From contig VGTG01000033.1 in the NCBI GenBank assembly GCA_016874795.1, positions 1-44,060 on the forward strand: DNA of 44,060 bases. The letters are read 5' to 3'. Under the pieces are notes generated by a model. It was given only the letters and a program-made list of their open reading frames with translations, ran no database searches and was not told where the DNA came from. Below, piece by piece: positions 27,148-42,658 of this stretch (positions within the stretch are counted from its first letter, which is position 1; every line of letters begins with the position of its first letter). Source of the DNA: Deltaproteobacteria bacterium. Lineage in GTDB: Bacteria > Desulfobacterota > Binatia > UBA12015. A program made the position numbers and the translations under genes.

Positions 27148-30100
27148 TCAGCGAAGCCAGCGAAGGCCGACGGACTGCGCGAGCTTCTCCGCCTCGGAGC
27201 GAGAGGTGCGAGCCGCTCGCTGGTTGCCGCGGCGAGCTTCGAGCTCCGCCCGACCCGCGAGAGCGGAGGCGAGCGTCGTCCGTGCGCCGATGTCGCGCGC
27301 AACGCGCACCGCCTCGTCGTAGAAGTACTCGGCGCGACGCCAGCCCTCTTCACCCTGGGCCAACGCCACGGCGGCGAGCGCACGAGCGCTCTGCGCCTGA
27401 CGGAGCCGGCCGCCAGCGCGACGCCGTACGCGCTGCGCGACGCGGTCGGCCCGATCGATCTCGCCGAGCTCGAGGAACGCGTCGACCGCAAACCGGAGCG
27501 ACTGCTGTACGCCCGCCGCGCCGGTCAGGTTGTCCTCGATCTTGCGGAGCAGCCGCGCGCCGGAGGCGGCCGCTCCGGTGCGCCGCGCCGCGAGGACGGA
27601 CAGCGCAGCGAGGTTCGGAACGCCGCTGCGCGAGCCTACCGCCTCGGCGAGGGCGAGCCCTTCCCCGGCCCACTCGCCTGCCCGCTCGACCTCGCCGCGG
27701 AGCAGCAGGGCCGTCGCGATATGGGCCGAAGCGGTGACCTGCACCGACCGGTTGCCGTGCGCGACCGCGAGTCGATGCGTCTCGAGCGACTCGGCGAGCC
27801 CCTGCTCGAGCTCGTCCCGATGAAGAAGGACCACGTCTCGCGCGGCGCGCGCCCAGAGGAGGATGTCCGGGTTCTCTTCCGCCTGGTTGGCGTGGATCGC
27901 TTCGTACAGGGCGGTGTCCGCGCACCGCGTCGCGTCGTCGAAGCGGCCGTCGAGCGCGTAGCCGACCGCGAGGCCGCGCTGCACGCGCCAGCGCCAGTAG
28001 GTGATTCCCTCGCGCTGCGCGAGCTCGAATGCCTGGCCGAGCTGCCCGAGCCCGGCGGCGTGCTGCTCGGCCGCGCCCATGATGCGAAGGAGGCCGGTGA
28101 AATTCGCCACGGCGATCCGGTCCTCGGCGGTTCCGGCGCGCTCGAGCAGATCGGCGAGCCCGTCCGCGACCGTCTCCGCCGTGGACTCGGTCCCCTCGCC
28201 GTAGATCGCCGCGAGGCCGAGAAGCCGGATGCCCGCCTCGATCGCTCGACGGGCCTGCGATTCGTCCGCGGGATCTCGACGCGCGAGGTCCCACGCGCGC
28301 CGATAGAACTGCGCGGCGCTGCCGTAGCTCGGCACGGACTCCGCATGCCCGGCCGCGGCGAGGAGATGCTGGATCGCCTTCTCGTGCTGCTCCGCGTTCT
28401 GGAAGTGAAAGGCGAGGAGCGCGCTCGACTCTCCGGGCTCGGTGCCCGATCGGCCTTCGAGCGCGTGGCCGATCTCGCGATGCAGCTCGCGACGCTGCTT
28501 GTGGAGCAAGCCCTGGTAGGCGACCTCCTGCGTCAGCGCCTGCTCGAAGAGGTACTCGCCGGCCGCACCGTCGCGCGCGACGCGGATCACGCCGTCTTCC
28601 GCGAGCGCGGCGAGACGGCTCGCGACCTCGATGCCCTCCTCCGCGACGAGTCGCTCCAAGACGCTCGAGGAGAACCGCCGGCCGATCACGGACGCCACCT
28701 GGACGATTCTCTTCGACTCGAGAGGCAGCCGGTCGAGGCGGGCGGCGACGATCTCGTGCACCGTGGCCGGCACGTCGACCTCGCGCAGGTCACGCGCGAC
28801 GACCGGTCCCGCGGAGGTCACGACGACCACGCCGGTTTCGAGCAGGTCGCGCGTGACCTCCTCGGTGAAGAAGGGATTCCCCTCGGCGCGCTCGTGGATC
28901 GCCTCGACCAGCTCGTGCGGTGGATCGCCGCCCGTGATCGCGTGCACGATCGAGCGCGTCTCGGCGGGCGTAAGCGGAGCGAGCTCGATCTCCTCGAGCC
29001 CCTCGAGAGCTTCGCTCCACGGACCCGGCACATCCGGCCGATAGGAGCAGACCGTCATCACGCACGATCCGCGTGCGCGCTCGACGAAGACCTCCAGGAG
29101 CTCCGCCGAAGCGGCGTCGATCCACTGTGCGTCCTCGAGGACGAGGACGACCGGGATCTTCGCGCAATCGGCGAGGATCAAGCGCGCGACCGCCTCCGCC
29201 GTCGCGACGCGAAGCTCGTCGCCCGCCGTCCCGGAAGCCGTCGTCGAGACGAGCCCGAGCACGCGAGCGACCGCTTCGTAGGTCGTCTCCGTGTCGGAGC
29301 CGAGGCTCTCGACCCGACTTCGCAAGCAAGCCGCGACGGCGTCGTCGGAAGCGGTGCCGCCCGGAGCGAGATGGTGCCGCAGCAAGCCGACGAACGGCCG
29401 ATAGGGAGCGTCGCGCGCGTACGAAAAGCACTGCCCCCAGAGGACGAGCGCGTTGCCGTCGTCGAGCCGCCGGACGAACTCCGCGATCAGCCGCGAAGCG
29501 CCGACCCCGGCGTGTCCGACGACGCCGAGGATCTGACCGCGCCCTCCGCACGCACGCGCGAAAGCCTCTTCGAGGCGGCGCAGCTCCGCGGTGCGTCCGA
29601 CGAACGGCCCGCCGCGCGCGGAGCGGCGCTCGAGCGGCGGCTCGCTCGCGCGAGCGCCCTCGACCTCGAAGGCGCGCACCGGCAGCGCCTTGCCGCGAAC
29701 CGCGAGGGGCCCGAGGTCTCGCGCGGAGAAATGCGGCGCGACCATGCGCTGCGTCGACTCGCTCATCAGGATCGCGCCGGGGCGCGCCATCGACTGCAGG
29801 CGTGCCGCGAGGTTCGTCGTGTCGCCGATCGCGGTGTAGTCGAGCTTCAGGTCGCCGCCGACGGTGCCGACGATCACCGGCCCCGTGTTCAAGCCGAAGC
29901 GCGCCTGGAGAGCGGGGCGACCCTCGGCGCGAAGGCGGTCGCTCAGACCCACGAGGCTGTCGCGGATCGCGATCGCCGCCTGCACGGCCCGCTCCGGCGC
30001 GTCCTCGTGCGCGAGCGGAGCACCGAACAGCGCCATCACGCCGTCGCCGGCGATTTGATTGACGAGCCCCTCGGCGCGTCCGACCTCGTCGAAGACGACG

Positions 30101-30477
30101 GCGAGGTAGCGGTCGAGGAGGTCGCGGAAGTCCTCCGGGTCCATCGTCTCGGCGATCGTCGCCGAGCTGACGAGATCGCAGAAGAGAACGGTCACCTGCT
30201 TTCGCTCGCCCTCGATCCGGCCGCGCGTCGCGAGAACCTTCTCCGTCAAGCCGGCCGGCATCTGCTCGCGCAGCTTGCGGAACGCGCTCGCGAGGGCGAC
30301 GCGCCGCGAGGCCGGACGGATCTCCTCGCCGCAGCGCGGGCAGAACGCGAACGAAGCGTGCACCGGCTGGCCGCAGTCCAGGCAGCGCGCCTGCGGCTCG
30401 TGTCCGCACTGCGCGCACCCGGCACCGATCGCGGTCGCCGCTCCGCACGCGAGGCACGTCACCTCTTCCGGTTCCAT
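27148..30477 (-). CDS. zinc-ribbon/class III nucleotidyl cyclase/ATPase/TPR regulator
   Basis: 1109 residues in four parts: a double zinc ribbon (about 8-53; CLACG, CAQCG, CLDCG, CPRCG); a class III adenylate/guanylate cyclase domain (about 90-265) with metal-binding Asp in LFCDLVSS and IAGDGVMALFG, nucleotide-specifying Lys/Asp in LKLDYTAIGD, and transition-state Asn/Arg in TNLAARL; an AAA-like ATPase (about 290-560) with Walker B VLVLEDAQWID; and a long C-terminal TPR-like helical array to the end. The cyclase looks catalytically complete. The P-loop reads GHAGVGAS, with Ala327 instead of Lys, so ATP hydrolysis is doubtful. Probably a cytoplasmic signalling protein. A TATGAT -10 lies at 30489-30494. 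Confidence 0.9.
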   Translation of the reverse strand: MEPEEVTCLACGAATAIGAGCAQCGHEPQARCLDCGQPVHASFAFCPRCGEEIRPASRRVALASAFRKLREQMPAGLTEKVLATRGRIEGERKQVTVLFCDLVSSATIAETMDPEDFRDLLDRYLAVVFDEVGRAEGLVNQIAGDGVMALFGAPLAHEDAPERAVQAAIAIRDSLVGLSDRLRAEGRPALQARFGLNTGPVIVGTVGGDLKLDYTAIGDTTNLAARLQSMARPGAILMSESTQRMVAPHFSARDLGPLAVRGKALPVRAFEVEGARASEPPLERRSARGGPFVGRTAELRRLEEAFARACGGRGQILGVVGHAGVGASRLIAEFVRRLDDGNALVLWGQCFSYARDAPYRPFVGLLRHHLAPGGTASDDAVAACLRSRVESLGSDTETTYEAVARVLGLVSTTASGTAGDELRVATAEAVARLILADCAKIPVVLVLEDAQWIDAASAELLEVFVERARGSCVMTVCSYRPDVPGPWSEALEGLEEIELAPLTPAETRSIVHAITGGDPPHELVEAIHERAEGNPFFTEEVTRDLLETGVVVVTSAGPVVARDLREVDVPATVHEIVAARLDRLPLESKRIVQVASVIGRRFSSSVLERLVAEEGIEVASRLAALAEDGVIRVARDGAAGEYLFEQALTQEVAYQGLLHKQRRELHREIGHALEGRSGTEPGESSALLAFHFQNAEQHEKAIQHLLAAAGHAESVPSYGSAAQFYRRAWDLARRDPADESQARRAIEAGIRLLGLAAIYGEGTESTAETVADGLADLLERAGTAEDRIAVANFTGLLRIMGAAEQHAAGLGQLGQAFELAQREGITYWRWRVQRGLAVGYALDGRFDDATRCADTALYEAIHANQAEENPDILLWARAARDVVLLHRDELEQGLAESLETHRLAVAHGNRSVQVTASAHIATALLLRGEVERAGEWAGEGLALAEAVGSRSGVPNLAALSVLAARRTGAAASGARLLRKIEDNLTGAAGVQQSLRFAVDAFLELGEIDRADRVAQRVRRRAGGRLRQAQSARALAAVALAQGEEGWRRAEYFYDEAVRVARDIGARTTLASALAGRAELEARRGNQRAARTSRSEAEKLAQSVGLRWLR

Positions 30478-30565: not shown

Positions 30566-30720
30566 ACCGCGGCGGCTTCAAGGGAAGTCCGGTGAAAATC
30601 CGGCACGGCTCCCGCCACTGTAAGTCGGAACGAAAGCGCGAACCGGCCACTGTCCCTTCGGGGATGGGAAGGCCGCGCGAGTAGGAAGCCGACGAGTCAG
30701 GAGACCTAGCCCCACGCGGC
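30566..30720 (+). ncRNA. cobalamin riboswitch
   Basis: The order of conserved blocks is diagnostic: AAGGGAAGTCCGGTGAAAAT (30580-30599), CCGGCACGGCTCCCGCCACTGTAA after it, and the B12 box AGTCAGGAGACCTAGCC (about 30694-30710). A P1 helix can form between ACCGCG near 30566 and CGCGG near 30715. It senses adenosyl- or another cobalamin and would shut off the BtuB-like receptor and lipoprotein downstream when B12 is plentiful. No terminator with a T-run is seen after it; with the annotated ATG only about a dozen bases past the B12 box, translational control is more likely. Confidence 0.93.
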
Positions 30721-30722
30721 CG

Positions 30723-32912
30723 ATGCTCGAAGTCCTCCGGGATGCGGGGACGCGAGGTCTCGAAATCTACGACGCAGGAAGAAAGGACCGGCGGGTCTCG
30801 ATCCGCTCGGGAGGCGGGCTCGCATGGCGGCGAGCGCTCGCGGCGTACCCGGTGTGCGCGGCGATCGCCCTTGCACTCGCGGCCGTCGGGCCGGCGCGTG
30901 CGCAGGAGCCCGAGCCCTCGCCGTCTCCGTCCCCGTCTACTTCCCCGTCGCTTGCACCGCGCGAGGCGCCGCCCGAGTCGAGCGCGATCGACCGCATCGA
31001 GGTCCAGGGCGAGACGCTCGGCGAGCTCGCCGATGCGACGTCGTTCGCGACCGTCATCGAGATCCACCAGCAGGCGGAGGAGTTCAAGACCGTCGCGCAA
31101 GTGCTCTCCGAGACGGTCGGGCTACAGGTGCGGAGCTTCGGCGGCCTCGGCGACTTCGCGACGGTCTCCGTGCGCGGGGCGAGCGCCGGACAGGTGCGCA
31201 TCTACTTCGACGACGTGCCGCTGACGCGCGCACGAAGCGACACCGTGAACCTCGCGGACCTGCCGCTCGAGCCCCTCGCGCGGATCGACGTCTACCGCGG
31301 CGTGACGCCGCTCTCCGTCGGCGCTTCGGCGCTCGGCGGCGTGATCAACCTCGTCACGAAGGATCCCGGCGAGGAACCGACGGTCGCTCTCCTCTTCGGC
31401 GGTGGCTCCTTCGGCACGCGGCAAGGGAGCGTGACGACCTCCACGCGCCGCGGCGACCTCGGCTTCCTCGGATCGTTCAACTACCTCGGATCCGAAGGCG
31501 ACTTCCCGTTTGACGACGACAACGGCACGCCGCTCAACCCCTTCGACGACGAGCGCGTGCGCCGCGAGAACAACCAGTTCAACTCCGGCGACGCGATCCT
31601 GAAGGCGATCTGGGACCTCTCACCGACCTCACGGATCGTCGGGCTGAACGAGCTCTTCATCAACGAGCAGGGCGTGCCCGGCATCGGCGCGCTTACCTCG
31701 AAGGACGCGAGCCTCTACGATTTCCGTAACCTGAGCTACGTCCGCTTCGAGAGCGACGACACGGGCTCGCTGCCGGAGGAGATCGATTCGACGCTCTTCT
31801 TCATCTACGAGGAGGAGCGCTTCACCGACCTGATGGGCGACATCGGGCCGGGAAACCAGTCGAGCCGCAATCGAAGCTTCGCCGGCGGTGCGAACGTGCA
31901 CGGCGTGCAGCCGCTCGGTGCGCATCTCCTCGAGGCGCGGCTCGACGTCGGCGGCGAGGTGTTCGTGCCGCGGAACCTCCTCGATCCGGAGCCGCAGGAC
32001 CCGAACCAGTCGCGCATCTCGTTCAACGTCGGCGTCGGCGACACGTGGTCGCTCCTCGAGGACTCGCTCCTTCTCGACGGACAGCTCCGCTACGAGCTCG
32101 CGAGCGACGACTTCGGCGACATCACGATCCCGTCCGGCGAGATCGTCGATGCGCCGACCGGCGGAACGAACCAGCTCTTCACGCCGCGCCTCGGCGCGCG
32201 CTGGCTTCCGTGGAACGAGCTCGCGCTCAAGATGAACGTCGGGCGCTACGGGCGCATCCCGAGCTTCTTCGAGCTGTTCGGGAATCGCGGCTTCGTCCTT
32301 GGCAATCCCAACTTGAAGCCCGAGCAGGGCGTCAACGTCGACGTCGGCTTCGAGGCGCGACCGCTCGATTGGGGCTTCCTCACGCGGTCCCGCGGCGAGG
32401 CCGTGTTCTTCTGGCGAAGCGTCGACGATCTGATCGTCCTCGAGCAGAACTCGCAGCAGCGCTCGATCTTCCGGAACCTCGCTTCCGCGGAGATCCTCGG
32501 CGTCGAGCTGAGCGCCGCGACGGTGCTCTGGGAGAACCTCGGTGTCACCGCGAACTACACCTACCAGGACGCGCGCGACGAGAGCGGCGGCGCCGCCGAC
32601 GGCAATCAGATCCCGGGCCTGCCGCGCAACGAGGGCTACGCGCGCATCGACTGGGACCGGTGGGACGCGGTCCCGTTCTACGAGCTGATCTTCGCGTCGG
32701 GAAACTTCGTCGACACACGCAACCTGCGCGAGATCCCGAGCCGCACGGTCCACACCCTCGGCCTCCGCTACACGCTGCCGCGCACGCCGCTCACGCTGAC
32801 GTTCGAGGCGCTCAACATCACCAACAACCAGATCGAGGACGTCGCCGGCTTCCCGCTGCCGGGTCTCTCGTTCTTCGGAACCGTGGCCTACCGCTGGGTC
32901 GGAGCCACGTGA
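30723..32912 (+). CDS. btuB: TonB-dependent outer-membrane receptor, BtuB-like
   Basis: 729 residues. An extended n-region, then a hydrophobic signal core (about 40-58) ending GPARA, a Pro/Ser-rich linker, the plug domain (FATVSVRGASAGQVRIYFDDVPL; quoted in part: VSVRGASAG, IYFDDVPL, LGGVINLVTKDPG) and a 22-stranded-barrel type C-terminus ending in aromatic VAYRWVGAT. The riboswitch makes cobalamin or another corrinoid the likely ligand. The start is uncertain: ATG 30723 has no ribosome site, and a strong purine-rich AGGAAGAAAGGA (30776-30787) lies downstream of it with no standard in-frame start codon after it. Confidence 0.88.
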   Translation: MLEVLRDAGTRGLEIYDAGRKDRRVSIRSGGGLAWRRALAAYPVCAAIALALAAVGPARAQEPEPSPSPSPSTSPSLAPREAPPESSAIDRIEVQGETLGELADATSFATVIEIHQQAEEFKTVAQVLSETVGLQVRSFGGLGDFATVSVRGASAGQVRIYFDDVPLTRARSDTVNLADLPLEPLARIDVYRGVTPLSVGASALGGVINLVTKDPGEEPTVALLFGGGSFGTRQGSVTTSTRRGDLGFLGSFNYLGSEGDFPFDDDNGTPLNPFDDERVRRENNQFNSGDAILKAIWDLSPTSRIVGLNELFINEQGVPGIGALTSKDASLYDFRNLSYVRFESDDTGSLPEEIDSTLFFIYEEERFTDLMGDIGPGNQSSRNRSFAGGANVHGVQPLGAHLLEARLDVGGEVFVPRNLLDPEPQDPNQSRISFNVGVGDTWSLLEDSLLLDGQLRYELASDDFGDITIPSGEIVDAPTGGTNQLFTPRLGARWLPWNELALKMNVGRYGRIPSFFELFGNRGFVLGNPNLKPEQGVNVDVGFEARPLDWGFLTRSRGEAVFFWRSVDDLIVLEQNSQQRSIFRNLASAEILGVELSAATVLWENLGVTANYTYQDARDESGGAADGNQIPGLPRNEGYARIDWDRWDAVPFYELIFASGNFVDTRNLREIPSRTVHTLGLRYTLPRTPLTLTFEALNITNNQIEDVAGFPLPGLSFFGTVAYRWVGAT

Positions 32913-32922
32913 GGAGGAAACC

Positions 32923-34101
32923 ATGCGAAGGAATCGAGTGAGCGATCGGCTCGCGCACAGGCGCGCGACGAGCGGCGTCCTCGGGCTGTCGGCTCTCGCC
33001 CTCGTCAGCGCTTGCGGAGGCGGCGGTGGAGGCGACGGCGGCGGCGACCCGACGCCTCCTCCCCCGCGCGAGTCCGACACGGCGATGATCGTGACGAGCG
33101 ACTTCCAGAGCGGCGCGTACTCGACGATCCCGCTCGACGCGCCGACCGCGATCTCGCGCAACGTCGGCAGCGCGCACGCCGATGCGGTCGGCCGCAACGT
33201 GGGCGGCAGCTTCTACGTGATCAACCGCCTCGGCGGCGACAACGTGCAGGCGCTCGACGCCAACTTCGGGACCGTGTGGCAATGCTCGCTCGGGAACGGC
33301 GCCAATCCGCACGACATCGTGATCGTGGCCGCGGACAAGGGGTACGTGTCGCTGTACGACGGCGGCATCGCGGTGATCGACCCGTCGACCGGGGCGGACT
33401 GCGACGGCTTCGTGCGGAGCACGATCGACCTCTCGAGCTTCGCGGACGCCGACGGCCTCGCCGAGACGGATCAGATGGCCGTCGTCGGCGACCGCCTCTA
33501 CGTGACTCTGCAGAGGCTCGACCGCGACCAGTTCTTCGCGCCGACCGAGGCGAGCTTCCTCGCCGTCATCGACACGGAGACGGACGAGTTCGTCGACGTG
33601 AACCCGGCGACGCCCGCGATCGACGCGATCACGCTCACGGGCACGAACCCGTTCTCCGAAACGAAGGGCTTGACGGTGCGCAGCGGCAAGATCGTGATCG
33701 CCGAGATCGGCAGCTTCGGGGTACTCGACGGCGGAATCGAGACGATCGACGTGGCGACCAACACCCCCGAGGGCTTCTTCGTGACCGAGGAGGAGCTCGG
33801 CGGCGACATCACCGACTTCGTGATCGTCAGCGACACGCGCGGCTATGCGATCGTCGCCGACGCGAGCTTCAACAACAGCCTGATCCGCTTCGATCCGAGC
33901 CGCGGCGACGTCCTCGCCGTCCTCACGACGACGTCTTCGTTCCTGCCCGACATCGAGTACGACGCCGAGCGTGGCCGTCTGCTGCTCGCGACGCGGGACT
34001 TCCTCGCGCCGGGCATCCGCATCTTCTCGTCGAACGACGAGGAGATCACGACGGAGCCGATCGACACCGGCCTCCCGCCGGTCAACATCGTCCTGCCCTG
34101 A
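32923..34101 (+). CDS. beta-propeller surface lipoprotein in the B12 operon, BtuG-like
   Basis: 392 residues. The signal peptide ends in a lipobox-like LVSAC (Cys about 31) followed by a Gly-rich tether, so it is a lipoprotein. The mature part is built of repeated strands with VYVIN/VIDP/VATN-like motifs (FYVINRLGGDNVQAL, IAVIDPSTGADC, LAVIDTETDEF, IETIDVATNTPEG), a YncE-type seven-bladed propeller. It starts ten bases after the receptor gene under the same riboswitch. Bacteroides BtuG is also a propeller lipoprotein that caps BtuB and hands over B12; the same role is inferred here from architecture and position, not from sequence identity. Confidence 0.85.
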   Translation: MRRNRVSDRLAHRRATSGVLGLSALALVSACGGGGGGDGGGDPTPPPPRESDTAMIVTSDFQSGAYSTIPLDAPTAISRNVGSAHADAVGRNVGGSFYVINRLGGDNVQALDANFGTVWQCSLGNGANPHDIVIVAADKGYVSLYDGGIAVIDPSTGADCDGFVRSTIDLSSFADADGLAETDQMAVVGDRLYVTLQRLDRDQFFAPTEASFLAVIDTETDEFVDVNPATPAIDAITLTGTNPFSETKGLTVRSGKIVIAEIGSFGVLDGGIETIDVATNTPEGFFVTEEELGGDITDFVIVSDTRGYAIVADASFNNSLIRFDPSRGDVLAVLTTTSSFLPDIEYDAERGRLLLATRDFLAPGIRIFSSNDEEITTEPIDTGLPPVNIVLP

Positions 34102-35452: not shown

Positions 35453-37693
35453 ATGGCCGAGCGTCGAAGCGTTCCCCGTGTCTGTCCCTTCTGAGAGGCG
35501 ACCTGCGGCCTCAGCGTCGAGGTCGAGGGCGAGCGCGTCGTCACCGTCCGCGGGGACAAGGAAGACCCGTTCTCACGCGGCTTCCTCTGCCCGAAGGCGT
35601 ACGGCCTGAAGGAGCTCTACCACGACCCCGATCGCCTCCGTCGCCCGATGCGCCGCACCGCGAGCGGCTTCGAGGAGATCGGCTGGGACGAGGCGTACGA
35701 GGAGGTCGGCGCGCGGCTCTTCGAGATCCGCGAGAAGCACGGCAACGACGCGATCGGGCTCTACACCGGCAATCCGGTCGTGCACGATCTCGGCGCGCTC
35801 CTCTACCGTCCGGTGCTGCAGCGCGCGCTCGCGACGCGGAGCCTCTTCAACGCCTCGGCGATCGATACCCTGCCGAAGATCGTCCAGACGGGCCTGATGT
35901 TCGGACGGCACTTCCCGCTCGGCGTGCCGATTCCCGACATCGACCGCACGAGCTACCTCCTCGTGATCGGCGCGAACCCGGTGATCTCGCACGGGAGCCT
36001 GATGACCATGCCGGACGCGCCGGGCCGCCTGAAGCGCGTCCTCGAGCGCGGCGGCAAGGTCGTCGTCATCGATCCGCGACGGACGGAGACCGCGCGCATC
36101 GCGAGCGAGCACCACTTCATCCGCCCGGGATCCGACGCGGCGTTCCTCCTGTCCCTCGTGCACGTGCTCTTCGACGAGGACCTGGTCGATCTCGGAGCAG
36201 CGAAGGATCGCGTGAGCGGGCTCGACACGGTGCGCGCGATCGTGCGCGACTTCGCGCCGGGAGCGGTCGCCGAGCACTGCGGCATCGCCGCGGAGACGAC
36301 GCGGCGGATCGCGCGCGAGATCGCCGCGGCGGAGTCTGCCGCCTGCTACGGCCGGCTCGGCACGTGCGTGCAGGAGTTCGGCACGCTCGCGAGCTGGGGC
36401 TGCGATCTCGTCAACATCCTCACCGGCAATCTCGATCGCGCCGGCGGCGTCATGTTCCCGAATGCCGCGGCGCCGGTCGACGCCGCGTTCCCGCGCGGCA
36501 AGGGCTTCGAGATCGGCCGCTGGAAGAGCCGCGTCAGCGGCCAGCCCGAGGTCGAGGGGATGATCCCCTCGTCGACGATGGCGGAGGAGATGCTGACGCC
36601 CGGCGAAGGCCAGGTGCGCGCGATGATCCTCCTCATGACGAACCCGGTGCGGAGCGCGGCGAACTCCGCGCAGCTCGAGGAGGCGTTCTCGAAGCTCGAC
36701 TACCTCGTCGCCGTCGACTTCTACCTGAACGAGTCGACGCGCCACGCGAACATGATCCTGCCGACGCCGTCCCCGCTCGAGTACGCGAACTACGAGGTCG
36801 GCCTCTACCTGCTCTCGGTGCGGAACGTCGCGAAATGGTCGTGGCCCGCGGTGCCGTCGCCGCCCGACACGCAGCAGACGTGGGAGGTTCTCCTCCAGCT
36901 GAGCGCGCGCTTGATGGGACTCGGCGGCACGCCGCTTCGGGACGTCGACGCGTTCGTCGTGCACGGCTACGCCGAGGGCGCGGTCGCCGCGAACGGCGAC
37001 AACGGACGGTGGGCCGGCCTCACGCTCGAGGAGGTGACGCAGCAGCTCGGCGCCGATCCGGGACCGGAGCGTCTCGTCGACATGCTCCTCCGCGTCGGCC
37101 CCTACGGCGACGGCTTCGGCCGCAATCCCGACGGCTTGACGCTCGAGAAGGTGCAGGCGGCGCGGCACGGCATCGATTTCGGTCCGCTCGCCCCGCGTCT
37201 CGACGAGGTGATCCACACGGAGAGCGGGAGGATCGACCTCGCTCCGCCGACGATGACGGAAGACCTCGGGCGCCTGCGCACACGCATGACGCCTCGCAAC
37301 AGCGGCTTCGTGCTGATCGGGAGGCGTGATCTCCGCTGCAGCAACTCGTTCATGCACAACCTTCCGGCGCTCGTGAAGGGCCCCGATCGCTGCACGCTGC
37401 ACGTGAGCCGCGAGGACGCCGTCCGGATCGGGCTCGAGGACGGCGGCGCCGCTCGCGTGACGAGTCGCGTCGGCAGCGTCGTCGCACCGGTCGAGGTCAC
37501 GGACGACCTGATGCCGGGCGTCGTCAGCCTGCCGCACGGCTGGGGGCACGACGCTCCGGGATCACAGCTCCGCGTCGCGCAGGCGCACGCCGGGGTCAAC
37601 ACCAACATCCTGACGGATGATCGCGCCTACGACGCCGCGAGCGGCACCGCGGTGCTCTTCGGAACTCCGGTGACGGTCGTCCCGGAGGCTTGA
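35453..37693 (+). CDS. molybdopterin-dependent oxidoreductase with TGA in place of an Fe-S cysteine codon
   Basis: From ATG 35453 (GGAGG ribosome site) the frame is continuous to 37693 (746 residues, normal family length) except for TGA at 35492-35494, codon 14. It falls exactly on the second cysteine of the [4Fe-4S] motif: C11-P-F-(TGA)-E-A-T-C18-G, with the fourth ligand C46 in FLCPKA. The rest shows the bis-MGD domain (YTGNPVVHDLG, FGRHFPLGVPIPDID) and the molydopterin-binding C-terminus (SNSFMHNLP, SLPHGWGH). Translation from the next good ATG (35648) would lose the whole Fe-S segment. Either a single-base lesion (TGC to TGA) or decoding of UGA as Cys/Sec. Electron-transfer partner and substrate are unknown. 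The stop abuts the convergent btuF stop. Confidence 0.82.
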
Positions 37694-38647
37694 TCAGGGA
37701 CGCGGCTCCGCGTCCTCGTGCACCAGGGAGAAGAGCTCCCGCGCCGCGGCCGCGATGCGCGGGCCGGGACGCAGCAGGATCCACGAATGGACCGGCCGCA
37801 CGCGCCCGTCGCGCACGGCCGGAACCGAGCGGTACGCCTCCCAGTACGCCTCGAGCGCCGCATTCGCCTCGGAGCCCATCGCACCGTCGACGATCACCTC
37901 GGGCGCCGCCGCGACGACGGTCTCGAGCGACAGACGCGGCCACGGCAGGCCCGAGGCCTTGCCGACGTTCCGGCCGCCCGCGACCTCGATCAGCTCGTCG
38001 ATGAAGAGGCCGCCGCCGGCCACGACGAGCGGATCGTGGCCGACGACGAAGAGCACCCGCCGCGTCGGACGCTCCGCGGCGCGGCGTCGCACGTCGTCGA
38101 GCTCGCCTTGAAGCTTCGCGACGAGGCGCTCGGCCGCGGGCGCGGTGTCCGTCCACCGTCCGACCGTGCGGATCGCCTCCCAGGTGTCCGCGAGCGTGTG
38201 CTCGCCGACCATCACGACCTCGAGCCCGAGCGAGCCGAGCTGCTCGACGGAAGCTTGATTGCCGGGGGTCGGAACGCCGATCACGACGTCCGGCTCGAGC
38301 GCGACGATCGCCTCGATGCTGGGCGCGTTGTAGGTGCCGATGCGTGGCAGCTTCGTCGCCTCGGGCGGATGGTCGCAGAACGTCGAGATGCCGACGAGCC
38401 GATCGCCTGCGCCGAGCGCAAAAACGGTCTCGGTGACGGAGGGAACGAGCGAGACGATACGACGCGCACCGCCGGGCGGCGGCTCGCTCGCGCGGCCCGG
38501 AGCGGCTTCGCCCGCGGAGCCCGTCGGCGACGGCGCGACGGCCGACGTCGCCGTGCTCGCGTCGCTCGCGACGCTCGCGACGCCCGACGCGCTCTGTGCG
38601 AGGGCGAGAATCATCGCGAGCACCGGAATCGCAAGAAGCGACTTCAC
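37694..38647 (-). CDS. btuF: periplasmic corrinoid-binding protein
   Basis: 317 residues: signal peptide (about 1-22, VLAMILALAQSASG), a low-complexity Ala/Ser/Pro linker, then a helical-backbone metal-receptor fold with RIVSLVPSVTETVFALG, LVGISTFCDHPPEA and IGTYNAPSIEAIVALEPDVVIG (quoted in parts), which is the BtuF pattern. It would deliver cobinamide or cobalamin to a BtuCD permease, but no btuC or btuD is present in this window. It is the last gene of the cobamide operon; its GTG start overlaps the cobS stop (GTGA, 38644-38647). Confidence 0.88.
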   Translation of the reverse strand: MKSLLAIPVLAMILALAQSASGVASVASDASTATSAVAPSPTGSAGEAAPGRASEPPPGGARRIVSLVPSVTETVFALGAGDRLVGISTFCDHPPEATKLPRIGTYNAPSIEAIVALEPDVVIGVPTPGNQASVEQLGSLGLEVVMVGEHTLADTWEAIRTVGRWTDTAPAAERLVAKLQGELDDVRRRAAERPTRRVLFVVGHDPLVVAGGGLFIDELIEVAGGRNVGKASGLPWPRLSLETVVAAAPEVIVDGAMGSEANAALEAYWEAYRSVPAVRDGRVRPVHSWILLRPGPRIAAAARELFSLVHEDAEPRP

Positions 38648-39408
38648 GCCGGCCCTCCGCACCAGGCCGCGGTCACGCAGAGGAACGCGACCTCCGCGAT
38701 CTCGATTCCGGCTCCATAGAGGTCGCCGGTGAGCCCGCCGATCCGGCGAGAAGCCCACGCCCAGAACGCGAGCGCCGCGACTGCGGCCCCGACCGAGGCG
38801 CCGAGCGCCGCGACGGCACCGCCTGGAACGAGTACGAGAGCGAGCGCGACGATCACGCTCGCGACGGCGACGTCCGACGTCTCCCCGTGATCACGGAAAG
38901 CGCGCCCGAGCCCGCTCGGCCGCGCATACGGAAACGCGGCAACGGCCACCGCAGCGAGCCAGCGGGAGACCGCCGGTGCGACGAGCACGAGAGCGGAGGC
39001 GCCGTCGAGCACCGGCTCGAGCGCCGCCACTTTCGCGAGCACGGCGAGCAGCAACGCGACGGCGCCGAAGGCGCCGATTCGGCTGTCGCGCATCACCTCG
39101 AGCGCGCGCTCGCGATCGCGCGTGCTCGCGAGCGCGTCGAACGAATCGGCGAGCCCGTCGAGGTGGAGCCCGCCGGTCGCGACGACGAGGACCGCGACGA
39201 CGACGATCGCGGGCAGAATTCCCGGCAGGAGACTGCTCGCGAGATTCCCCGCCGCGAGCGCGAGAGCCCCGAGCACGAGACCGACGGCGGGGAACGCGGC
39301 GAGCGAGCGGCCGAGCTCTGCGTCCGTGATCGTTCCGCGATCGCCGGGAAGGCGCGTCAAGAATGCCCACGCGACGACGAAGCGGCGCGGCGCGGAGACC
39401 TGCTTCAC
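38644..39408 (-). CDS. cobS: adenosylcobinamide-GDP ribazoletransferase (cobalamin synthase)
   Basis: 254-residue integral membrane protein that joins GDP-cobinamide to alpha-ribazole(-phosphate), the last assembly step. Typical CobS N-terminus FLTRLPG, the acidic metal-binding motif [14 protein letters not shown] (about 62-75), then alternating hydrophobic helices. The GTG start overlaps the cbiB stop (GTGA at 39405-39408), as with most junctions in this operon. Confidence 0.92.
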
Positions 39409-40334
39409 GCGTTTCCCCACGCGCTGCCGGCGAGAGCGAGACCGGCGGCGATCCCGCACGTGAGACGCGTCGTCCGCCACGCTTCGGCGATCGTCGCGGC
39501 GTTCACCGGTCGAACCGCGTCGCCGAGACGATACGCTCCCGGCTTCGCGAGCTCGACGCCGAGGAGCCCCGCCATCGCGGCCATCGGCCGCCCTGCGTTC
39601 GGGCTCTCGGTGCGCGCGCCGTCGCGGCGCAGCACGCGCCAGCCGCGGCGCGCGTCGTTGCCACGAAGAGCACCGGCGACGAGCAGGAGACCGGTCGTCA
39701 GCCGCGCCGGGATGAGATTCAGCAGATCGTCGAGACGCGCCGCCGCCTTTCCGAGGTGCTCGTAGCGTCCGTGGTAGCCGATCATCGCGTCCATCGTGTT
39801 GACGGCACGATAGAGCACCGCTCCGGGCAGGCCCGCGAGAGCGAAGTAGAAGAGCGGCGCGACGAAGCTGTCGGAGGCGTTCTCGGCGACGGACTCCGTC
39901 GCACCCTGCGCCACCTGCGTCGCGTCGAGACGCGACGGATCGCGGCTGCAGAGCGAGCGAAGACCCGAGCGCGCCGCCTCGAGATCGCCGCGCGCGAGAT
40001 CGTCGTGCACGCGCATCGCCGCCCGGCCGAGCGCGCGAAGCGCGAAGGTCGGCTTCAGGAGCAGCACCGCGAGCGCCATCCCGAGCCACGTCGAAGGCTC
40101 GGCGACCCGCACCACCAACGCTGCGAGAGCCGCGGACGCGCCCGGCACGACGAGCGCCATCGCGGCGCCCCAAAGAAGCTCCGGCACGGCCCCGCTCGGT
40201 GCGAGCCGCTCGAGCGCGCGCACGGCACTTCCCATCCACACGACCGGGTGCAGCCGATTCGGCGGCTCCCCGAAAGTCGCGTCGACGAGAAGAGCGAGTG
40301 CGAGGACCAGCGGGCCCTCGTCGAAGGCAACCAC
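39405..40334 (-). CDS. cbiB: adenosylcobinamide-phosphate synthase
   Basis: 309-residue membrane protein (CbiB/CobD) that attaches the aminopropanol arm to adenosylcobyric acid. Motifs: [18 protein letters not shown] near the N-terminus, [19 protein letters not shown], and [13 protein letters not shown]. It acts after CbiZ has removed a foreign lower-ligand-bearing arm, rebuilding the nucleotide loop. GTG start immediately after the cobT stop, with no gap. Confidence 0.93.
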
Positions 40335-41402
40335 TCAGGCTCCGCTGTCCGCGACGCCGGCCTCGGCGAAGCTCGCCATCTCGTGGAGGATGCGAAGCGC
40401 GGCGTCGACGAGTCCCATCGCGAGGGCCGAGCCGGTTCCTTCACCGAGCCGGAGCTCGAGATCGAGGAGCGGCACGAGGCCGAGAGCGCGGAGGAGATGT
40501 GCGTGTCCCGCCTCGACGGAGAGATGCGAGGCGATCAGATAGTCCTCGGCGCGCGGCGCGAGGCGCGTCGCGACGAGCGCCGCAGCGGCGGCGATGAAGC
40601 CGTCGACGAGGACCGGCACGCGCGCGGCAGCCGCGCCGAGCACGACGCCCGCGAGCCCCGCGACCTCGAAGCCGCCGAGCCGCGCGAGAACGTCGAGCGG
40701 ATCCGCCGAGCCAGGCGGAGCGAGCCGGTTCACGGCGAGCGCTTCCTCGACGATCGCAACCTTCCGCGCGAGCGTCGCCGCGTCGATGCCGGTGCCGCGT
40801 CCCGTCACCTCGCGCACGCTGGCACCGGTGAGGCAGGCGGTGAGAGCGCTCGCCGCGGTCGTGTTGCCGATCCCCATCTCGCCGATGCCGAGGAGCGTGA
40901 TCCCGTCGCGAGCGAGCTCCGCCGCGAGCGCGATGCCGACCTCGAGAGCCGCCTCCGCCTCGTCGCGCGACATCGCCGGACCCGCGGTGAAGTCCTTCGT
41001 TCCGGGTCCGATGCGCCGCGCGAGAACGGCCGGCAGGTGCGACGGAGCCGCGATCACACCCATGTCGACGACGATCACGCGTGCGCCGGCCTGGCGCGCG
41101 AGGACGTTCACGCCGGCGCCACCGCTCGCGAAGTTGGCGAGCATCTGCGCCGTCACCTCCTGCGGATACGCGCTGACGCCGCGCGAGACGACGCCGTGGT
41201 CGGCCGCCATCACGACGAGGGCCTTCTCCGGCATCGGTGGGACCGGCGTCCCGCGAATCGCCGCGAAGCGGCAGGCGAGATCCTCGAGCCGCCCGAGGCT
41301 CCGGCGCGGCTTCGTCTTCTCGTCGAGGAGCCGCTGCGTTTCCGCACCGACGGCGGGATCGACGGCCGCGATGCCGGCGATCGTCTCGCGGAGCCGGCTC
41401 AC
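40335..41402 (-). CDS. cobT: nicotinate-nucleotide--dimethylbenzimidazole phosphoribosyltransferase
   Basis: 355 residues. Activates the lower-ligand base to alpha-ribazole phosphate. Motifs: MAADHGVVSRGVSAYP, GIGEMGIGNTTAASAL and the C-terminal RLGEGTGSALA containing the catalytic base Glu321 (Glu317 in Salmonella). GTG start overlaps the cobU stop (41399-41402). With CobU and CobS it completes nucleotide-loop assembly. Confidence 0.95.
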   Translation of the reverse strand: MSRLRETIAGIAAVDPAVGAETQRLLDEKTKPRRSLGRLEDLACRFAAIRGTPVPPMPEKALVVMAADHGVVSRGVSAYPQEVTAQMLANFASGGAGVNVLARQAGARVIVVDMGVIAAPSHLPAVLARRIGPGTKDFTAGPAMSRDEAEAALEVGIALAAELARDGITLLGIGEMGIGNTTAASALTACLTGASVREVTGRGTGIDAATLARKVAIVEEALAVNRLAPPGSADPLDVLARLGGFEVAGLAGVVLGAAAARVPVLVDGFIAAAAALVATRLAPRAEDYLIASHLSVEAGHAHLLRALGLVPLLDLELRLGEGTGSALAMGLVDAALRILHEMASFAEAGVADSGA

Positions 41403-41953
41403 GCTTCTCGTCCTCGCGCCGAAACCTCCACGGGGCCGGGGTGCACGCGCAGAACGACGCCGAGGATCGCGACGTGGATCTCGTCGGCGACGCGCGCGAC
41501 GCGCTGGTGGGCGGCACCGGCGAGATCGCGGAACGCGCGCCCGAGCACGCTCTCCGGCACGACGCCCATCCCGACCTCGTTCGTGACGATCAGGACCTCG
41601 GCTTGGTCCGCGGCGATCCGCTCGAGCACCTCCTCGAGGCGAGCGAGCGTCTCCTCGGCCGCCTCGCCGCGCATCAGGCGGTTGGCGAGCCAGAGCGTCA
41701 AGCAGTCGATCACGACGACGCTCGCGCCGCGTGTCCGCTCGAGCGCCGCGGCGAGGTCGAGCGGCTCCTCGACCGTCTCGAGCTCACCTTCGCGCTCCGC
41801 GCGATGCCGGCGCGCGCGCTCGCGCATCTCCTCGTCGAGCGCTTCGGCGGTCGCGACGTACCAGCGCGGCGGCGAAGCACGACGTGCCCGCGCGAGCGCG
41901 AAGGCGCTCTTTCCGGAGCGCACGCCGCCGCCGATCAGGACGATCCGTCCCAC
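41399..41953 (-). CDS. cobU: adenosylcobinamide kinase/adenosylcobinamide-phosphate guanylyltransferase
   Basis: 184 residues, the bifunctional CobU/CobP. P-loop GGGVRSGKS at 8-16, then YVATAEALDEEM, with RHRAERE carrying the His/Arg region used for GMP transfer, VVIDCLTLWLANRL and VTNEVGMGVVPE. All match the family. GTG start directly follows the cbiZ stop. No cobC-type phosphatase is found in the operon. Confidence 0.94.
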   Translation of the reverse strand: MGRIVLIGGGVRSGKSAFALARARRASPPRWYVATAEALDEEMRERARRHRAEREGELETVEEPLDLAAALERTRGASVVVIDCLTLWLANRLMRGEAAEETLARLEEVLERIAADQAEVLIVTNEVGMGVVPESVLGRAFRDLAGAAHQRVARVADEIHVAILGVVLRVHPGPVEVSARGREA

Positions 41954-42658
41954 TCAGCGCCTCTCCCGCTCCGCGAGGCACGCGAGCGCACCGCGAAGCA
42001 CCGCTTCGCGGACCGACGCGCCGATCGCGGCGCCGAGCCGCGTGTACTTGCCGACGTAGGCGGCCACGGGCGCGCCCGCCAACGCGACGGGGGCGACGAC
42101 CGCGTTGCAGTCGGTCCCCGTGCCGGTCGCGGCGCGATCGGACACGCGGCTTCGCACGCCCGCTTCGAACAGCGCCGCCGCGCGCGCTTCCGTGGAGAGC
42201 GCGAGCGCTTCGGTCAACGCCCCTTCCGAGAGCGGCCGGTCGACGCGGCAGAGGACGTTGATCGTGCCCGCGTGGGTCGGTTCTTCGTCCGCGGGATCGC
42301 CCGCCGCGAGCGCGTTCTCGATGCCGACCGTCGCGATCGCCTCGGCGCGTCCGGACGAGTCGCCGGCGACCGCATGCTCGAACGCGGAGAGCCGGCGGCT
42401 CGTGAGAAGGACGATCGTGGACTCTCCCGTGCCGAGCGGACGCGCGAGCGCCGCCGCGACCTCGCGCGGCTCTGCAGGCGGAGCGAGCTCCGGCCCGCGC
42501 ACGTGACACCAGACGACGGCGCGGGTGCGGACGCGCCCGCCGCCGACGATCGCCCAGCTCAGCGCTTCGTGCTCGCCGGGGAGGTCGACGCGAAGGTGAC
42601 TCTCCGTGCACGCGACGGAGAGAGCGCTCCGCGCGGAGATACCTTCCGCCGGGCTCAA
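41954..42658 (-). CDS. cbiZ: adenosylcobinamide amidohydrolase
   Basis: 234 residues. CbiZ cleaves the aminopropanol amide of (pseudo)cobamides or cobinamide to adenosylcobyric acid, allowing corrinoids with the wrong lower ligand to be remodelled. Family signatures: LTSRRLSAFEH, THAGTINVLCRVD, GTGTDCNAVVAP and YVGKYTRLGAAIG. A TTG start (42656-42658) ten bases after the acyl-CoA dehydrogenase stop is the best available. Its position ahead of cobU-cobT-cbiB-cobS indicates a salvage-and-remodel operon, not de novo synthesis. Confidence 0.92.
   Translation of the reverse strand: MSPAEGISARSALSVACTESHLRVDLPGEHEALSWAIVGGGRVRTRAVVWCHVRGPELAPPAEPREVAAALARPLGTGESTIVLLTSRRLSAFEHAVAGDSSGRAEAIATVGIENALAAGDPADEEPTHAGTINVLCRVDRPLSEGALTEALALSTEARAAALFEAGVRSRVSDRAATGTGTDCNAVVAPVALAGAPVAAYVGKYTRLGAAIGASVREAVLRGALACLAERERR

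Follow-up and report, generated by a model that had tools for sequence, protein, structure and literature searches.

In Bacteroides, corrinoids are taken up by complexes such as BtuB1G1 (Protein Data Bank [PDB] entry 8blw), BtuB2G2 (8bmx), and BtuB3G3 (8p97), in which a TonB-dependent receptor adjoins a seven-bladed propeller lipoprotein, BtuG, under a B12 riboswitch. BtuG has been described as confined to Bacteroidetes (PMC6143338) and as absent from other BtuB users (PMC12751083), and its origin has been explained by competition in the gut. We analyzed a 44,060-nucleotide stretch of DNA, here called the window, from a Deltaproteobacteria bacterium (contig VGTG01000033.1 of assembly GCA_016874795.1; Desulfobacterota, Binatia). 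It encodes a TonB-dependent receptor followed by a propeller lipoprotein, and the pair is headed by a cobalamin riboswitch. Our search of the literature found no report of BtuG for this bacterial group. We conclude that the lipoprotein is probably a divergent form of BtuG that captures corrinoids as the lid of a BtuB-type receptor, in a lineage other than the Bacteroidota.

The riboswitch aptamer (RF00174, model positions 45 to 169) lies at positions 30581 to 30707 of the forward strand. It scored 93.3 bits (E value, 4.7e-22) against a gathering score of 31.5, and no second cobalamin riboswitch was found in the 6.27-Mb draft genome, which is 96.7% complete. The initial annotation had begun the locus at 30566, 15 bases ahead of this Rfam match. 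On the same strand, the receptor open reading frame (ORF) starts 16 bases past the riboswitch end and occupies 30723 to 32912, encoding 729 amino acids from the first ATG; this start codon is the longest option, and the true start is uncertain. Abutting the receptor TGA is a 10-base gap, GGAGGAAACC (32913 to 32922, forward strand, read directly from the sequence), with a GGAGG Shine-Dalgarno ribosome-binding site ahead of the 392-amino-acid lipoprotein ORF (32923 to 34101, forward strand). The lipoprotein gene therefore has the position of a btuG gene, adjoining a btuB-type gene in a B12 riboswitch locus. Both the riboswitch and the ten-base spacing after a BtuB-like receptor had been read in the initial annotation, and both were borne out.

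To relate the lipoprotein to known proteins, we relied on sequence profiles, as single-sequence searches of Pfam, NCBIfam, and the PDB gave no match. Its relatives in 297 genomes of the same phylum were 27 to 53% identical to it, and a named genome collection yielded one relative, in a "Deltaproteobacteria bacterium" metagenome-assembled genome of this phylum. We aligned 27 relatives and ran the resulting family profile (A1) against all PDB sequences. The twelve best distinct sequences were all BtuG chains (8puj, 8okv, 8p97, 8blw, 8ptd, 8ptf, 8bai, 8baz, 3dsm, 8bmy, 8bmx, and 8bn0), with E values of 2.8e-7 to 2.1e-5. Designed Pizza propellers (1.2e-3) and WD40 proteins (approximately 0.01) came after them. 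Profile-profile alignment to a BtuG2-like/BtuG3 fragment pair was in blade register over five blades, with a score of 77.6 and a probability of 97%, whereas blade-shifted alternatives scored 26 and 22. The best E value of 2.8e-7 and this probability are both profile-level results, and it is at that level only that homology to BtuG was found.

A template-free AlphaFold2 model, made from an alignment of two sequences, was all-beta (predicted local distance difference test score, 71.6; predicted template modeling score, 0.73). Strand order gives seven blades, and the C-terminal strand (residues 386 to 390) pairs with N-terminal strands to close the propeller, which spans residues 50 to 392 (33070 to 34098, forward strand). 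When Foldseek's 1000 best chains were re-aligned with VIA, BtuG made up the top eleven entries, with Z scores of 29.0 to 30.6 (30.6 to 3dsm, 8bai, and 8okv) and approximately 300 residues aligned. An archaeal YVTN propeller (28.8) and E. coli YncE (26.0) were below them. BtuK1 and XusB of Bacteroides, likewise propeller lipoproteins serving TonB receptors (B12, xenosiderophores), had Z scores of 25.6 and 25.4, under BtuG, and are not the best relatives. The sequence profile is stronger evidence for a relationship to BtuG than is the structural Z margin. The propeller fold, which the initial annotation had left to structure prediction, was thus supported. Its term "YncE-like" applies loosely, in that the seven-bladed fold is shared with E. 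coli YncE and YVTN propellers, but BtuG is closer than YncE by sequence profile as well as by VIA alignment; YncE is not among the listed sequence-profile matches and has no B12 link.

DUF5074 (PF16819) was first taken as the BtuG family. It matched 6 of the 27 relatives weakly (best E value, 4.1e-6), the best scanned relative reached 26.5 of 27.2 bits, below the curated cutoff, and the window lipoprotein had no match. We dropped it as a marker because a BtuG2 fragment was also unmatched and a BtuG1 fragment was matched weakly.

Like BtuG, the lipoprotein has a signal peptide and a lipobox with an N-terminal cysteine (32923 to 33015, forward strand). The lipobox reads L-V-S-A-C in the translation, with Cys31 (codon 33013 to 33015) as the predicted lipidated residue. 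A Gly/Pro-rich tether of approximately 19 residues follows, up to about residue 49, and residues 1 to 48 are disordered in the model. The protein is strongly acidic, with a net charge of approximately -36 over residues 31 to 392. BtuG2 has a net charge of -18, and in simulations this charge attracts B12 (PMC10404256). Lipoboxes are present in close relatives, whereas in some others a CFI-box C-terminal anchor or a choice-of-anchor U domain stands in for the lipobox, and one relative has a dockerin domain. Variable anchors are as expected for a protein held outside the cell, as this one may be.

In BtuG2, Trp194, Trp272, and Tyr316 narrow the ligand pocket, and Tyr239 is a contact (PMC10404256). 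Trp194 aligned with F205 and Tyr239 with F265 of the lipoprotein, and each position is aromatic in 23 of the 27 relatives; over the whole family alignment, aromatic residues reach 70% or more in only 13 of 392 columns. We treat these matches as support rather than proof because alignment programs favor aromatic matches. Tyr335 of BtuG2 was unaligned in the profile-profile alignment, and the comparison rests on the named aromatics, with the 13 hydrogen-bond residues of BtuG2 being absent from the main text of the paper. The D-A and B-C loops, which form the presumed ligand face, show higher conservation than those on the opposite face (P = 0.003).

The receptor has a plug (PF07715, 2.6e-14) and a barrel (TonB_dep_Rec, PF00593, 1e-40). 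When its family profile (A6) was run against the PDB, the best chain was 8blw_A, aligned end to end with an E value of 1.4e-52. This chain is the BtuB1 that pairs with BtuG1 in the BtuB1G1 complex, so that among solved structures the receptor is nearest to a B12 receptor. Next in rank were an unnamed TonB receptor (9gbc), CirA, E. coli BtuB, and BtuB3. The best PDB relatives of both proteins are found in the Bacteroides BtuB-BtuG systems, which also resemble this pair in strong negative charge, blade register, and two aligned pocket aromatics. Unlike those systems, this one is outside the Bacteroidota, shares approximately 24% identity, and has the receptor gene before the propeller gene. The lipoprotein family also differs from Bacteroides BtuG in its longer loops (ADxDG and QRLDR), in the variable anchors of its members, and in that no Bacteroidota export signal was read after the lipobox.

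If the two proteins work together, their genes should stay together. We surveyed 118 genomes of the class, accepting propellers at a profile E value of ≤1e-10 and receptors at ≤1e-40. Propeller homologues occurred in 42 genomes and receptor homologues in the identical 42, a co-occurrence without exception across 24 genera. Fisher's exact test gave 6e-33, which overstates the case because the genomes are related, but so complete an agreement carries weight. A receptor was directly upstream on the same strand, with ≤700 nucleotides between match ends, for 38 of 51 propeller hits. For at least 28 of the 51, RF00174 lay no more than 5.3 kb away on that contig (chance, approximately 0.3% per locus), and this count is a lower bound because of contig ends and the limited match list. 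Families outside the class have the same receptor-propeller pairing with a riboswitch. The link to the receptor, which the initial annotation had proposed to look for in related genomes, was therefore conserved in 42 of 42.

For eight of these 28 propellers, the riboswitch is no more than 600 nucleotides upstream, and some of the eight do not adjoin a receptor (two in genome G092 and one in G310 are far from it). In G317 and G333, the riboswitch is between receptor and propeller, and in G342 (contig C394), a riboswitch precedes each of the two genes, which are divergent, and a BtuF-like gene follows the propeller. These arrangements put the propeller itself under B12 control.

The window also encodes corrinoid salvage. 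On the reverse strand are genes for CobS, cobamide synthase (38644 to 39402; PF02654, 8.2e-55); CbiB/CobD (39405 to 40334; PF03186, 5.8e-88); CobT, phosphoribosyltransferase (40335 to 41402; PF02277, 1.9e-134); CobU, cobinamide kinase (41399 to 41953; PF02283, 3.2e-52); and the salvage enzyme CbiZ, adenosylcobinamide amidohydrolase (41954 to 42658; PF01955, 8.8e-45). A BtuF-like periplasmic corrinoid-binding protein is encoded on that strand in a transcription unit separate from the uptake pair (37694 to 38758; PF01497, 6.8e-32), and its best NCBIfam match is BtuF (143.8 bits; cutoff, 234). No CbiC was found in the 96.7% complete genome, and CobM/CbiF had a sub-cutoff match only, which is probably a siroheme methylase. 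De novo corrin synthesis therefore seems absent. From its gene content, the organism looks like a corrinoid salvager, for which tight capture would pay.

We propose the following mechanism. RF00174 riboswitches permit expression at low cobalamin, and a low cellular level would allow the operon to be expressed. The receptor would be placed in the outer membrane, with the lipoprotein anchored through Cys31 and its tether. With the face that its D-A and B-C loops form, the acidic propeller would capture a corrinoid and pass it to the receptor for import powered by TonB energy. BtuF and the CobU, CobT, CobS, CbiB, and CbiZ salvage enzymes would then use the imported corrinoid.

Several observations weigh against a BtuG-type capture lid. 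Over 195 aligned columns, identity to BtuG is low (24%). In VIA, BtuG leads the next propeller by less than 2 Z units, a margin that is modest alone, and the Foldseek E value order starts with BamB, NirN, and YncE, with BtuG not among the best 50 matches listed. Trp272 and Tyr316 of BtuG2 are not kept, although Trp272 is replaced by Ala in BtuG3 too. The receptor scored 100 of 599.7 bits with the BtuB equivalog TIGR01779, far below its cutoff, which is why we call it BtuB-type rather than BtuB, and CirA is close behind BtuB1 in its profile ranking. Two propeller paralogues (L043, 7631 to 8740 in G000:C11, and L109, 5899 to 7077 in G018:C43) have neither a receptor homologue nor a riboswitch nearby. 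Cys31 is followed by GGGGGGDGGGD and not by an export signal such as the MKWD of BtuG2. This signal has been described as exclusive to Bacteroidetes (PMC6143338), and so it is not expected here. Finally, corrinoid binding, surface exposure, receptor docking, and lid motion are what we infer for the lipoprotein. Thus, where the initial annotation proposed a BtuG-like system outside Bacteroidetes, the fold, profile homology, lipobox, and linkage uphold the proposal, and its "capture lid" is a presumed role.

Some of these points would fit a periplasm-facing or structural propeller, similar to YncE or BamB, that accompanies the receptor without capturing corrinoids outside the cell. BamB and YncE lead the Foldseek order. 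In proteobacteria, an outer membrane lipoprotein that lacks a known export signal is periplasmic by default. E. coli YncE is likewise a propeller, and its gene is beside that of another TonB receptor. Even so, we consider this explanation unlikely because BtuG ranks above YncE in the sequence profile and in VIA, because some propellers are under their own riboswitches, and because relatives have CFI-box or choice-of-anchor U domains, which NCBI describes as sorting or anchoring modules.

A different ligand for this B12-controlled pair, for example a cobalt chelate or an unusual cobamide precursor, is very unlikely. In its favor, cobalamin riboswitches control cobalt uptake too in some bacteria, the model score does not mark the receptor as a clear BtuB, and the receptor has siderophore receptors among its close matches. 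However, the usual reason for B12-controlled cobalt uptake is de novo corrin synthesis, which seems absent, and BtuF and salvage genes are close by. The initial annotation had also left open whether the lipoprotein is convergent with BtuG or distantly related to it, and we favor distant relationship: recruitment of a generic YVTN-type propeller to the same role is hardly credible, despite the 24% identity and the fact that in a repeated fold profile scores partly reflect shared blade motifs, because BtuG tops the profile matches in the whole PDB with many other propeller chains far lower, the blade-register alignment is strongly preferred, and the receptor class and regulation are shared with BtuG.

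If the lipoprotein is a BtuG-type lid, a second lineage has the same pairing, and lipoprotein-assisted, TonB-dependent capture of a scarce vitamin would be older or more mobile than thought. A plasmid search found no propeller on plasmids. B12 scavenging with such a lid might also be much more widespread than thought, these proteins would provide new B12 binders of very high affinity, and the generality of lid-assisted uptake would become directly testable. We tentatively raise a broader possibility, which the evidence does not yet favor: that BtuG-type propeller capture did not arise as an invention of Bacteroidota in crowded guts but is a module spread among deltaproteobacterial-type bacteria. 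Its anchors would be interchangeable (lipobox, CFI-box C terminus, and dockerin-like or other fused domains), and it would at times be expressed alone from its own B12 riboswitch, so that it might capture corrinoids without being tied to a single receptor.

Elsewhere in the window, a gene for an adenylate/guanylate cyclase domain fused to an AAA ATPase (27148 to 30477, reverse strand) is divergent from the riboswitch locus, and a molybdopterin oxidoreductase gene (35648 to 37693, forward strand) separates the uptake pair from the salvage cluster.

Propeller loci of other genomes contain additional genes. Locus L044 has a FecCD permease gene downstream of the propeller, and in G314, a 608-amino-acid lipoprotein-like ORF (L103, 5254 to 7080) that had no Pfam or NCBIfam match is directly downstream. 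In extended loci, approximately 4.6 to 5 kb separate the propeller from the riboswitch upstream of it. The gene that comes first in these loci encodes a secreted protein of approximately 460 amino acids (L094, 2230 to 3612; L095, 2205 to 3581; also L097 and L107). It has weak SGL/ScyE propeller matches and is possibly a second propeller in the operon. The second gene (L095, 3496 to 4500; L096, 4175 to 5188; L097, 3777 to 4757; L107, 8138 to 7044) encodes a conserved secreted protein (42 to 48% identity) with a weak relationship to the Leptospira lipoprotein family LIC_13355. We tried it as a possible BtuH, but it had no PDB relative; it is a candidate extra corrinoid binder. Lastly, tRNA-Sec genes are approximately 2 to 4 kb from the propeller gene at L056 (11844 to 11935), L057 (10254 to 10345), and L058 (4866 to 4957), a neighborhood conserved in three genomes from two families.

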